44,032 nucleotides of DNA, taken from contig MHSK01000014.1 of the NCBI GenBank assembly GCA_001821295.1, positions 1 to 44,032 of the forward strand, in the 5' to 3' direction. The stretch is from Candidatus Taylorbacteria bacterium RIFCSPLOWO2_12_FULL_43_20. GTDB lineage: Bacteria > Patescibacteriota > Minisyncoccia > Phycocordibacterales > HO2-43-120. The notes below the pieces were generated by a model. It saw nothing but the letters and a program-made list of their open reading frames with translations. It was not told where the DNA came from and searched no databases. Below, in pieces: positions 17,862-22,843 of this stretch (position 1 is its first letter; the number at the start of each line of letters is the position of its first letter). Both the position numbers and the translations under genes were made by a program.

Positions 17862-20273
17862 TCATGAGCAGGCTTTAAGCAATGAAAGCTTGTCTGAGAT
17901 CAATGATGGGTAAAATATGCCTCCTCGCGAGTTTTCCAGCACTGAAATCGCTTCCATTACCCTATCGTCCCTCCAAGCCGACAAGCATATTCCCGCGATA
18001 TTTGAGGCGTCTTCTCTTCTGGTTCTTCTGTCCATTTCCGCTTTCAACTCAAAAATTACTTTGTCCTTAAACTCGCCGAGAGACCGGCCGCTATTCTCAA
18101 GTTTTTTCAGCACAGCATATACCGCCTCTCTGTCATCATTGACCATAAAACGGATGAAATCAGCCACAGGCGAATTGAATTGTTCAAGTAATTCATTGAC
18201 GCGTGCTTTATTTACCGTTACCCACTCCCCCTCGGGAATATTCTCCCTTATTTTTTTCAAAGAAAAATTTAAAAAATCTTCCGCAAGTGACAAGTTTCCA
18301 TCCGCAAAGCGCGATACGGCTTCCAATCCGCCGGATGAAATAAGAGTTTCCTCCTTCCATGCCAAATCTCCAACACGGCGAGACACATCAGCGCCAGCCG
18401 AGGGCTGTGACAACCCGGCTCGGGATGAAAATTCGCTACCTCCATTATCCCGCTCTCTGGAAGCAAGATCATTTATCCGAATCAGACCCGAATTTTTACG
18501 AGACCTCTTTAAGACAAAATATCCGGCCACTACCATGCTCCAAAAAAGAAGGCCGAGAACAAATAGAGCGAATTTCGGGTAGCTGTCTATGCCAGTCTCC
18601 GGCACTTCGGTAAGATAGATAAAACCCGGCTCCAAAGGCGCTGGCTGAACATTCTGAACCAAATTTACGTCTGACCGTCTAGACGAACGTCCGCCGCCGC
18701 CACTACTTCCTCCTCCGTCGTTATCTCCTCCGACGCCTCCGGCTTGAACAATAACGGCGCAACTATCCGTGGACACGCGGTTATTCGCGTCCACAACTCG
18801 CACCGTTGCCTCCTTTGTTCCCGGATTTGAATAAGTTATAACGGACGTAGTAGCGCTACTGCTCAAACTGTCAGTCCCCGTCCATTCTATTGTAAAAGGC
18901 GCGGTTCCTCCGGAGATATTTACCATTCTTCTGACCTCATCTCCCACCAGAGCCGTGTCGCTATCCAATGAGCAAACTGCGCTGAAGCCGTCGCTAACAG
19001 CCGGTTCTATCACTATAGCGTTGCATGTCCTGGTTAAAACCTGGCCATCCGCGGACATCACGGTAACCGCCGCCGTTTTAGTTCCGGAAGTGGAATATGA
19101 AGTCGTGATTGCCGTTGACGTGCCCGATAAATTGTCACTGCCGCTCCACTCTATTGTATAGGGTTCTTCTCCACCGCTTATATTTACCCTTCTCGTCACT
19201 TGTTCGTTTATCCTAAACGGACCAGAAATATCCGGACACGATACCGCCAGATTATCCTCCGGCTCTTCCGCTTCAATCGGATCAAACGCGGCGCACACCG
19301 CTATGACGCTATTGGGACTGTGGTCATCTGGAAAAAATGCGTGCCTCGCCACAGCCGTATCCGCATCATTCGGAACAGTCAGCTTCTGGTTTACCCTATG
19401 GGTCAAAGACGGCCTTGCGACCATGTCCATAAGATCGTTTGTTATTCCGGTATCAATTATTTTTTGACCGCCTTTTGACAACCGGACGAACCATTGTTCA
19501 CGCGTCTGAGTCTGATTTTTCCTAGCATCCGTGCCGTCCGAAGCGAAATCCGTTGAGAAAAGCGTAACCTGATAATCGCCTTTAGGAATAGTCACTCCTT
19601 CGGGATCGGAAACCGCCCTTGGTTCATTACTTGAAGAAACAAGCTTTCTTGTCGTGTCAAACTCCACCACGATTCTGCCCTGAGGCGCGGGAGAGAAAAG
19701 AGGGCATTCCGGCGCTTCGGGCAAGGCCTGCTCGGCGGGTTCGCTTCCTTTTGTTTTGAAACTCTTCAATTTGCCTTTTTCAGTGAAAAGTTTATTTTTC
19801 GCGACTATTCTAAAAAAATAAGTAGTGTCCTCTTCCAAATCTTCAATTTCTACTTCAATGTTGGCCGGAGCGGGAATTCTGATTTTGTCAGTCTTGTCGC
19901 TTACGTCTTCAGTTTTACCATATTCAAAATACGCCTCCGTATCTATTGCCCCTTTTGGGTTCACATAGCCGTTCAAAGTGGCTTCCGTAAAATCAATATC
20001 ATCCGCGTCTTCTGTCCGGACGATCGGCTGGAAAGGCAAACCTATCGCCTCTTCAAAATCCGGAACCGCCGGTGTTACTCCGCTAATTATTGGAATGGGA
20101 AATCCCAGCGGATCCTTGCCTTCTTTTATGTTCTCAATGTGATTTACCGGATTTACAAAATCCAAAATATCGTCAAAAAAACCCGCACTTGCCGTTCCGG
20201 CACTCATCATAAAAAAGGAGATCGTTATATAGCCCGCGAATATCGGCAAGATGTATTTTTTCATTTTTTTCAT
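17862..20273 (-). CDS. Large surface protein, likely sortase substrate
   Basis: 803 residues. A signal peptide (1-30, SAGTASA) precedes a fibronectin-III-like domain (about 82-172), a beta-rich region with paired cysteines, and two similar PKD/SprB-like repeats (about 345-422 and 432-510) sharing VNISGG..P(Y/F)TIEW. A Gly/Ser-rich linker (511-530) leads to VPETG at 557-561, a membrane helix (566-588) and KRSRK. This order is the hallmark of a cell-wall sorting signal. Unusually, about 210 more residues follow after the positive stop, rich in charged helices. The sortase gene lies 61 bases upstream on the same strand, so the two are probably co-transcribed. Confidence 0.8.
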   Translation of the reverse strand: MKKMKKYILPIFAGYITISFFMMSAGTASAGFFDDILDFVNPVNHIENIKEGKDPLGFPIPIISGVTPAVPDFEEAIGLPFQPIVRTEDADDIDFTEATLNGYVNPKGAIDTEAYFEYGKTEDVSDKTDKIRIPAPANIEVEIEDLEEDTTYFFRIVAKNKLFTEKGKLKSFKTKGSEPAEQALPEAPECPLFSPAPQGRIVVEFDTTRKLVSSSNEPRAVSDPEGVTIPKGDYQVTLFSTDFASDGTDARKNQTQTREQWFVRLSKGGQKIIDTGITNDLMDMVARPSLTHRVNQKLTVPNDADTAVARHAFFPDDHSPNSVIAVCAAFDPIEAEEPEDNLAVSCPDISGPFRINEQVTRRVNISGGEEPYTIEWSGSDNLSGTSTAITTSYSTSGTKTAAVTVMSADGQVLTRTCNAIVIEPAVSDGFSAVCSLDSDTALVGDEVRRMVNISGGTAPFTIEWTGTDSLSSSATTSVITYSNPGTKEATVRVVDANNRVSTDSCAVIVQAGGVGGDNDGGGSSGGGGRSSRRSDVNLVQNVQPAPLEPGFIYLTEVPETGIDSYPKFALFVLGLLFWSMVVAGYFVLKRSRKNSGLIRINDLASRERDNGGSEFSSRAGLSQPSAGADVSRRVGDLAWKEETLISSGGLEAVSRFADGNLSLAEDFLNFSLKKIRENIPEGEWVTVNKARVNELLEQFNSPVADFIRFMVNDDREAVYAVLKKLENSGRSLGEFKDKVIFELKAEMDRRTRREDASNIAGICLSAWRDDRVMEAISVLENSRGGIFYPSLISDKLSLLKACS

Positions 20274-20334
20274 GTTAATTATTTTCCGCGTCTCCCCGCT
20301 TTCTCAAAAGAGTGCGTGGTGCCCCAAAGAGGAC

Positions 20335-21036
20335 TCATTCAACCATTTTTACACTTTTAATAAACTCCGCCTTGACCACATAACGATCTTCCTTGGCGCC
20401 GAAATTATCGCACGTGACTAGAGTTAGCATCGGCCTCTCCGCAATGAAGTCCACCCTACCTTCACTATTCTTCACGAGCGACACGTCTGTAACTCTGTAA
20501 GTATTAACTCGCGTATCAGTAAATATGGTAATCTCGTCTCCCTTCACAAGTTTTTCTATATCATTAAAAGACCGATAAGCGCCGTTATGCACCACTTTAA
20601 GATGACTAGAATGGCCAAGAAGCAAGATGTTGCCGTTTTCACCCACCAGTGCCGACGAAGGATGTCTCACCACTCCGTTTTTCAGAGCATCGTCCAGTAC
20701 CGACACTTCTCCCGTTTCGGGGTTTGATATGGAACTGTCAATTGCTATCTTTTTAATTATTATCCGTGTCGGTTTTTCTTGCTCCTGTAATTGCGGCTTT
20801 GACTCCGCGACCGGAAACTCAACATTTTCCTCTTTCAGAGCGGTGTTATTGGTTTCAGCCGCCAACACATCGCTGTCTATGGAGACTATCCCAGCCGGCA
20901 TAAAACCAGTAAGACCAAGAAAAGTAAAGGTCAAAAAAAATATAAAAGTCGTCAGAATTGAAAAATGAAAAAAATTGTCCCTTATGGGTGAAATTAGGGC
21001 TCTCCACCTATTTAACTTAACTTTAATTTCATTCAT
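20335..21036 (-). CDS. Sortase
   Basis: A 233-residue sortase with a cytosolic N-terminal stretch, a membrane anchor (about 25-48) and a catalytic beta-barrel. His142 lies in LLLGHSSH, Cys209 in LVTCDNF and Arg218 in KEDRYVVKAEF, the complete His-Cys-Arg triad. The substrate-like strand IIIKKIAIDSSI and the order of motifs fit class E/D-like single-domain sortases. It cleaves a sorting motif between Thr and Gly and links the protein to an amine. The neighbouring gene encodes a VPETG-bearing protein. Confidence 0.93.
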   Translation of the reverse strand: MNEIKVKLNRWRALISPIRDNFFHFSILTTFIFFLTFTFLGLTGFMPAGIVSIDSDVLAAETNNTALKEENVEFPVAESKPQLQEQEKPTRIIIKKIAIDSSISNPETGEVSVLDDALKNGVVRHPSSALVGENGNILLLGHSSHLKVVHNGAYRSFNDIEKLVKGDEITIFTDTRVNTYRVTDVSLVKNSEGRVDFIAERPMLTLVTCDNFGAKEDRYVVKAEFIKSVKMVE

Positions 21037-21061: not shown

Positions 21062-21247
21062 AGAGTCTGTTCATAATCTAATACCTAGGCACATTTCCCA
21101 AATTTCGAGCGAAAATCACGAAGTCCGACGAGGAATAGCGAGCTATGTTGAGGAGGAATGAGTGATTTGCAGCCGAAATTTGGAAAATGTGGCGGGTAAG
21201 CGTTGTTTTTATTCATTAATTTGCGATTAGATTATGAACAGGCTCTT
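21062..21247. mobile_element. 186-bp MITE-like hairpin element, family G
   Basis: Terminal inverted repeats AGAGTCTGTTCATAATCTAA / TTAGATTATGAACAGGCTCT match at 19 of 20 positions. Inner arms pair too (CACATTTCCCAAATTTCG with CGAAATTTGGAAAATGTG), so nearly the whole unit can fold into one hairpin. There is no open frame inside. It lies directly upstream of the sortase gene. Related ends occur at 22971-23051 and 8406-8429. Confidence 0.75.
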
Positions 21248-21352: not shown

Positions 21353-21490
21353 TAGCTCCTCACAAGGCCGAGTAATGGCCACACCACAGCCTTCTTTTCT
21401 TCTGTCATTCCCGTGAAAACGGGAATCCAGATCAAAATATGGCCTAGATTCCCGCCTTCGCGGGAATGACACCACTCGGTCTTGTGAGCA
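21353..21490. repeat. REP-like hairpin with outer inverted repeat
   Basis: An inner palindrome (about 21403-21470) built of TCATTCCCG and CGGGAATGA arms is enclosed by a second inverted repeat, CTCACAAGGCCGAGT / ACTCGGTCTTGTGAG. A similar inner palindrome is at 22861-22930. Confidence 0.7.
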
Positions 21491-21715: not shown

Positions 21716-22843
21716 ATGGCAAACGAAAATGAAAAAAAGGATGCTGAGAACTCAGAAAATGAGGAGAAACTGGGCCAAAAAGAAAAATACAAAGACATCT
21801 CTATCAAAACTCTCGCCGTCATCGGTCTCGCGGGAATACTCGCCCTGATCAGTCTTGTAATTGTGAAGTATTCCACGTCCGGAATGAAGTCAATCACTTC
21901 CGGCATTTCATCCGCAGTTTCCAAAATCCTGCCCTCCGAAACCCGCCTTAACCTTACCACTGACAAATACAATGTTGACTCAGGCGAAACATTCAATATC
22001 AATTGGACAGCTAAGCTCAGACATGAAGGATATTTCACGCTCACGTATGAATGCAGAGACGGACTTCATTTGGAAAAAATAGAGAAGGGCAAGAGCGAAA
22101 TATTAATATGCGGCAAGCCGTTAAGAATCAACAAAGACTTGAGGTCATTGTCGCTTGCAGCCGTGTCTGGAGAAAACAGATATCTTGACGCGACCATAGT
22201 GCTCGGCTTTATTGACGAGAGCAAAGGAATGGTCGCGGCTTCGGACGACATACTTGTGACAGTGGTCAACAGCTCCCTTTCCCAAAGCCCAAGCGCGAGA
22301 GAAGAGTCACCTTCGCCGGTCGCCACGCCTTCTTTGACATCCACCCCGAAACCTTCCGAGGCTACTTCTCCTTCACCATCTCCTAAGACACCAAGAAAGC
22401 CCATCTACCAACCCCCCGTGGAAAGATCACGGGTTATTCCCACACTTATACCTCCCGCGGAAGACGAGAATGGCCAAGCGGATCTGGCTATTGTCGCACT
22501 GGAGACTGGTACTTACAACAAGCGAACGAAATCCTTTACACGGCGGGACAATATAGACGATGATGACACTGCCGCGGTTCGATTCATCGTCGTAAACGCA
22601 GGCACCAAAAGATCGGGCTCTTGGGAATTTGAATCCGATCTGCCCACTAAAAGACGAAGACAGTTCAGTTCCGGCAGGCAGGTTTCTCTCTTGCCGAAAG
22701 ATCGGGTGGAATATATTTTGAGCTTTGATGAATTCAGAAGCGGGAGAAATCTTGATTTTGAAATAAAAGTGGACCCAGACAATAAAGTTAAGGAAATGAA
22801 TGAATCAAACAACACGGCCAGAATCAGAATTAATGTAAGATAA
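21716..22843 (+). CDS. Membrane-anchored surface protein with CARDB-like domain
   Basis: 375 residues. A charged cytosolic N-terminus (1-28) is followed by one membrane helix (about 31-52, TLAVIGLAGILALISLVIV), an external beta-rich domain with two cysteines (80-180), a Pro/Ser/Thr linker (about 182-245) and a C-terminal CARDB-like domain (about 253-375) with the typical ending FEIKVDPDNKVKEMNESNNT. CARDB domains act in cell-surface adhesion. The promoter appears separated from the gene by an inserted hairpin element, so expression may be altered by it. Confidence 0.75.
   Translation: MANENEKKDAENSENEEKLGQKEKYKDISIKTLAVIGLAGILALISLVIVKYSTSGMKSITSGISSAVSKILPSETRLNLTTDKYNVDSGETFNINWTAKLRHEGYFTLTYECRDGLHLEKIEKGKSEILICGKPLRINKDLRSLSLAAVSGENRYLDATIVLGFIDESKGMVAASDDILVTVVNSSLSQSPSAREESPSPVATPSLTSTPKPSEATSPSPSPKTPRKPIYQPPVERSRVIPTLIPPAEDENGQADLAIVALETGTYNKRTKSFTRRDNIDDDDTAAVRFIVVNAGTKRSGSWEFESDLPTKRRRQFSSGRQVSLLPKDRVEYILSFDEFRSGRNLDFEIKVDPDNKVKEMNESNNTARIRINVR

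Follow-up and report, generated by a model that had tools for sequence, protein, structure and literature searches.

The window analysed here is the whole 44,032-nucleotide stretch of contig MHSK01000014.1 from Candidatus Taylorbacteria bacterium RIFCSPLOWO2_12_FULL_43_20. A sortase gene and the gene of its putative substrate lie side by side on the minus strand, separated by 61 bp, and a CARDB-domain membrane protein is encoded divergently on the other side of the sortase. The features of the locus are as follows.

21716..22843, plus strand: divergent neighbour with an N-terminal transmembrane helix and an extracellular CARDB domain, a conserved locus partner
20335..21036, minus strand: sortase gene, 233 aa, single N-terminal transmembrane helix
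20611-20613, 20410-20412 and 20383-20385, minus strand: sortase catalytic residues H142, C209 and R218
17862..20273, minus strand: sortase substrate gene, 803 aa, downstream of the sortase gene
20184..20273, minus strand: signal peptide, about residues 1-30, by inspection and hydropathy (MKKMKK, hydrophobic core, ASA cleavage-like site)
18738..19241, minus strand: two PKD/SprB-like ectodomain repeats, about residues 345-512, by Pfam profiles
18591..18605, minus strand: VPETG, residues 557-561, predicted sortase cleavage T560/G561
18510..18572, minus strand: transmembrane helix, about residues 568-588, by hydropathy
18495..18509, minus strand: basic stop-transfer cluster KRSRK, residues 589-593, read from the sequence
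18186..18380, minus strand: tail module T1 (about residues 632-696), resembling an AAA+ lid (fold of DnaX domain II / RuvB lid) and lacking the sensor-2 arginine
17868..18167, minus strand: tail module T2 (about residues 703-802), a helical domain resembling the clamp-loader collar (DnaX domain III)

The 233-aa protein matched PF04203 (Sortase) with 74 bits, against a cut-off of 26.6. The residues H142, C209 and R218 are invariant in 14 linked sortases. None of the NCBIfam class cut-offs (C, D, E, F) was reached, the best being class E with 47.4 bits against 160; the general sortase model TIGR01076 was the only NCBIfam model above its cut-off. No second sortase was found in the 1.0-Mb genome. 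According to the passages of one account, CPR sortases (fam000526) are common and widespread but patchy in distribution (PMC6744442), and those passages do not mention this substrate type or its tail.

The substrate contains the parts of a sorting signal in order: a signal peptide, judged by inspection, a PxTG motif, a hydrophobic helix and a basic cluster. Its ectodomain has an FnIII-like stretch (about residues 136-174), followed by the two repeats, which fell just under the Pfam cut-offs (SprB, 2.9e-6; PKD_4, 2.5e-5; 27.3 versus 28 and 24.7 versus 27 bits). An assignment to CPR_pilus_PamR (NCBIfam) was rejected, with 25.7 bits against a cut-off of 300 and only the repeat-like residues 441-501 covered. 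VPETG is the sole [LVI]PxTG in the protein, and the best 19-residue hydrophobic windows after it begin at residues 564-572. Because of the signal peptide and KRSRK, the motif is placed outside the cell by rule. The catalytic residues, the 61-base gap, the motif, the helix, the basic cluster and the approximately 210 residues that follow it had all been described in the original prediction, and all were confirmed.

In proteins with known sorting signals, the chain stops at the basic cluster, which thus lies at the extreme C-terminus (PMC5148588, PMC12445088); this placement was not found in the substrate. The protein resembles the canonical Gram-positive LPXTG proteins in its signal peptide, PxTG, hydrophobic segment, basic cluster and adjacent cognate sortase; unlike them, it has a domain of about 180 residues, predicted to be folded, behind the signal. 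Since 242 residues follow VPETG, the substrate is an internal-signal variant rather than a canonical LPXTG member. This position might suggest that VPETG is incidental and that the gene product is a membrane protein of the ordinary single-pass kind, and the motif also departs from the family consensus, [IVLT]PYTG, of which it is a variant. Against such a reading, L19, P23, T25 and G26 are invariant across 20 diverged sorting regions. Moreover, a profile of the family's signals detected one sorting signal in this genome, the substrate's own, so that the single sortase is matched by a single detectable signal. The comparisons with relatives bear on the same question.

Relatives of the whole substrate protein were found in 107 of 197 genomes of the same order, and most of these matches were to the ectodomain repeats. 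The loci read among them contain [IVL]PxTG, then a helix, usually a basic cluster, and a tail of 31-369 residues. When 397 genomes of its Paceibacteria order were searched with a profile of T1 and T2, a related tail was identified in about 74 (83 matches minus nine genomes with DnaX as the sole match), nearly always after [IVLT]PYTG and a transmembrane helix. No match to the tail profile was obtained outside this order in a 380-genome sample across the phylum. The 72 tail genes examined carry both modules (33), T2 only (20) or T1 only (19). A PxTG motif precedes the tail in 62 of the 72, as VPYTG (27), IPYTG (27), LPYTG (4) and others singly or in pairs; the conservation of the motif-helix-tail order that the original prediction had proposed to check was thus borne out. 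In the congener G001, the order at the syntenic locus is identical, but the tail consists of T1 only. A third, short tail type was observed in six loci (L013, L015, L022, L026, L027 and L029), where 54-57 residues follow the motif behind a PxTG and helix and end in a common pattern like F-K-x-x-N-x-x-x-K-G-[IL].

A similar picture was obtained starting from the sortase. The profile of the linked sortase identified 80 loci over the named genomes (Kaiser-, Taylor-, Nomura-, Adler- and Wolfebacteria, Parcubacteria/Paceibacterota). As linkage counts need contigs that are long enough, the 59 loci with at least 4 kb downstream were assessed. A substrate with PxTG and a helix lies downstream in 54 of the 59, and T1 and/or T2 were found in its tail in 46; in the remaining 5 no substrate was detected despite the downstream space. 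[IVTL]P[YQ]TG precedes all 50 T1/T2 tails of this sortase-led set. Judging from these sequence comparisons, the order of motif, helix and tail is not due to chance, as it recurs in most relatives and is shared by many families. The presence of an adjoining sortase in most relatives also speaks against an incidental motif.

Natural losses of the sortase were then compared. Six tail-bearing genomes without a linked sortase (G100, G117, G126, G133, G176 and G184), belonging to five families, were defined after a second, more sensitive sortase search; these calls rest on genomes that are 90-99% complete. G161 and G387, which had also appeared sortase-less, were false negatives of the first search. 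All six genomes are without the motif and yet keep tail modules. The sequences read are APYIG in G100 and LPEVG and LPETS in G133 and G176, and no motif is present in G117, G126 and G184. G100 retains a 94-aa sortase remnant in the opposite orientation, with the Cys region only. G117 has one distant sortase and retains the helix and T2; G126 encodes a 353-aa protein of helix, T1 and T2, with no room for an ectodomain or a sortase before the CARDB gene, which still adjoins the tail gene. Both are thus helix-tail proteins without an ectodomain, and G184 retains T2 without the helix. Congeners of G100, G117 and G184 (G020, G048 and G245) keep both sortase and motif. In 13 sortase-less genomes (G002, G005, G010 and others), the sorting-signal profiles gave no match.

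Among genomes with a judgeable gene start, 60 have both sortase and motif, one has the sortase without the motif (G041), none has the motif without the sortase, and six have neither; G321, G357, G394 and G269, in which the gene lies at a contig end, were left out. The Fisher P value is 7e-8, or 4e-6 when three contig-edge genomes are counted, and both values overstate independence because the genomes are related. Three motif-bearing genomes are without a visible sortase, and in each of them the gene lies at a contig end. In the exception, G041 (L170, 1348-2358 and 2330-3031), an intact sortase is directly followed by a protein of helix, T1 and T2, while the ectodomain and motif have been lost; one weak sorting-signal match was found elsewhere in that genome (C10:50091).

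That the motif disappears together with the sortase while the tail remains is an argument for use of the motif by the sortase, and for some other reason behind the retention of the tail. The VPxTG motif is therefore very probably a working sortase signal, and the tail probably has its own role. The internal, functional-looking signal of the original prediction is supported by motif conservation and by this co-loss. Homologues without PETG had been named there as evidence against the idea. Such homologues do exist, but in genomes without a linked sortase, with the exception of G041, and so they strengthen the sortase reading. Taken with the adjoining sortases, the invariant residues and the single matching signal, the co-loss makes it most improbable that VPETG is incidental.

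Sequence profiles were compared to identify the tail. T1 has a consensus of about 65 residues, '..AR....ISxDA......N...A...L........W..LNkeKv', and T2 one of about 100 residues, 'F...l..gD...v...LR.l...g.....F...v...LD..YR.R'. Neither single tails nor the 31 members of set A6 had a significant match in Pfam scans, and a PDB sequence search with the tail profile gave nothing significant either. By hhalign, T1 and T2 are colinear with domains II-III of DnaX from the same order (probability 88.7, P 2.9e-7 with five rows; probability 91.7, P 7.8e-7 for the first 131 columns of a deeper tail alignment), these being single-comparison statistics whose probability of 88-92% is not certain by itself. 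As controls, 20 column shuffles gave P values of at least 0.045, and the reversed DnaX C-terminal part, the DnaX ATPase part and a sortase alignment gave at least 0.14. When the tail HMM was run over whole genomes, the only matches outside the family were genuine DnaX proteins. These matches were weak; on reading, the frames (320-401 aa) had YRKYRP-type N-termini and, in most cases, Walker A and LEEP.

The AF2 model of residues 624-803, built from 31 rows, had a pLDDT of 90.5 and a pTM of 0.72. A single-sequence model (pLDDT 45) was discarded, and a misaligned set of 96 tail fragments was kept out of the folding. In the Foldseek search against the PDB, the best 50 matches were all clamp-loader subunits, the first being E. 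coli gamma (E 6.5e-5), followed by RFC and YqeN. VIA-align matched the tail to E. coli gamma residues 177-358, which comprise the lid and collar, with a Z score of 14.2 over 170 residues; the overall rmsd was 10-14 A, which is compatible with two domains that are oriented differently to each other. By itself, T1 can be superimposed on the lids of RuvB with 1.6-2.1 A for 71-74 residues (1.8 A over 73). The structure prediction that had been suggested for the tail thus gave a folded lid and collar, an identity that the original prediction had not recognised.

Profile, HMM and fold agree that the tail and the non-catalytic part of DnaX are paralogues, the tail comprising domains II (lid) and III (collar) without the ATPase domain. 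The two share a colinear profile alignment, the predicted fold and the domain order, and the tail ends where the DnaX of this order, about 350 aa long, ends. Unlike DnaX (gamma/tau), the tail is fused to an exported membrane protein, and the AAA+ ATPase domain I with Walker A is absent from it, as judged from the sequence and profile controls. The sensor-2 arginine, present in 29 of 29 DnaX sequences, is replaced in the tails, mostly by E, A, K, S or T. The genome also has a normal DnaX, encoded at another site. The substrate therefore combines an internal sorting signal with a folded cytosolic arm; it is neither a canonical LPXTG protein nor a clamp loader, since one defining feature of each was tested and is lacking.

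The locus probably encodes a dedicated sortase-substrate pair with a bipartite substrate, in which the ATPase-free lid-collar tail of the stub serves as a docking or oligomerisation module. Judging from established families, the FnIII/PKD-like ectodomain would be exported by Sec. The transmembrane helix would halt export and leave the tail in the cytosol, according to the positive-inside rule. The adjacent sortase would cut VPET|G and attach the ectodomain to the envelope or some other acceptor, as suggested by the motif-sortase co-loss and the intact triad, and G561, the helix and the tail would stay behind as a membrane protein. Before cleavage the tail may gather substrate molecules at one membrane site, where it may persist afterwards; the CARDB membrane partner might be gathered too. 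The most likely product of cleavage would be a membrane-tethered ATPase-free lid-collar domain for non-catalytic docking or oligomerisation in the cytosol. In clamp-loader subunits, the collar ring is built from domain III, and the ATPase interface belongs to domains I-II (PMC11253446). This role is proposed because the collar is the ring-forming part and the lid has lost the sensor-2 arginine; the idea of oligomerisation comes from the fold. ATP hydrolysis by the tail seems unlikely because domain I and the sensor-2 arginine are missing, and what the tail preserves is its protein-contact surfaces. The first candidate partner would be the CARDB protein: no neighbour is more constant, as 73 of 77 assessable relatives have it divergently upstream of the sortase, and in G126 it still adjoins the tail gene. 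G041 was counted against this explanation, since the ectodomain and motif were lost there with a sortase next door.

The original prediction had proposed that the stub left by cleavage signals that the surface protein has been processed. The uncut tail and the cleaved stub would then differ in state or partner, and the stub would report anchoring. As a precedent, the passages available on Streptococcus gordonii describe a C-peptide, left by sortase A, that is sensed by a histidine kinase (PMC11502775, PMC11326707). The SGO_1180-1181 circuit, as those passages present it, is alike in that a membrane remnant could function after cleavage; there, a short transmembrane peptide is sensed in the membrane by the kinase, whereas here a folded, conserved cytosolic domain would remain and no kinase is consistently linked. 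In this genus, a histidine kinase and response regulators do lie near the locus, and a linked two-component sensor was therefore considered as a general feature. It was rejected, as a kinase-like H-box was found within 7 kb in just 1 of 80 relatives. Tail modules also persist in genomes without sortase or motif, where sortase cleavage is impossible, so the role of the tail cannot be only to report cleavage. A processing sensor is accordingly rather doubtful.

The separate role that had been offered as the other possibility fared better: retention in six sortase-less genomes indicates that the tail has a role independent of anchoring. Since relatives occur with T1 alone, with T2 alone or with a short tail of 31-60 aa, neither module is essential to sorting. 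The same variation (31-369 aa; T1, T2, both or neither) would suit a simple retention or timing device, as if bulk sufficed in some lineages to stop slippage through the membrane or to slow exit until the sortase acts. Bulk alone leaves the conservation of sequence and fold unexplained, and helix-tail proteins without an exported domain are retained in G126, G117 and G041; this explanation is considered unlikely. A bolder idea, to which we give very little weight, is that the cleaved stubs form a membrane-tethered collar ring, possibly with DnaX or other clamp-loader subunits. Sortase processing would then alter a clamp-loader-like assembly and link the cell surface to the replication machinery; in an episymbiont, this would tie host contact to replication.

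In the textbook sortase substrate, the sorting signal stands at the very C-terminus and nothing folded lies behind it. In that position, a large group of mostly uncultured Patescibacteria retains a folded domain descended from clamp loaders, which is present in about a fifth of the genomes searched. If this is confirmed, sortase anchoring would gain a cytosolic arm, and a replication-factor domain would have been recruited to the cell envelope. It would also give a testable handle on how the surface is built or monitored in these ultrasmall, mostly host-dependent bacteria, and the natural losses, in which the motif is gone with the sortase and the tail is kept, are ready-made genetic tests. 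This internal-signal class will escape any substrate search in which a C-terminal motif is required. The open-access literature contained no description of this substrate type in Parcubacteria and no paper joining sortase substrates with a clamp-loader domain, an absence that is no proof of novelty.

Several further observations concern the neighbourhood of the locus. A search of a plasmid collection gave no match. A GyrB signature was present in 64 of the 80 fetched sortase loci. In one congener (L035, 13351-16734), the gyrB frame has a long insertion resembling an intein with an HNH-type homing endonuclease. Between the sortase and CARDB genes of the window lies a palindromic MITE-like element of about 185 bp (21062-21246); its 21-nt terminal inverted repeats are 95% complementary, and a further inverted repeat of 37 nt lies inside it. 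Four more long copies, of 140-189 bp and 76-94% identity, occur elsewhere in the genome together with many fragments. Just past this element, at 21403-21471, is a REP-like 28-nt hairpin, formed by TGTCATTCCCGTGAAAACGGGAATCCAG and its inverse, which are 86% complementary.
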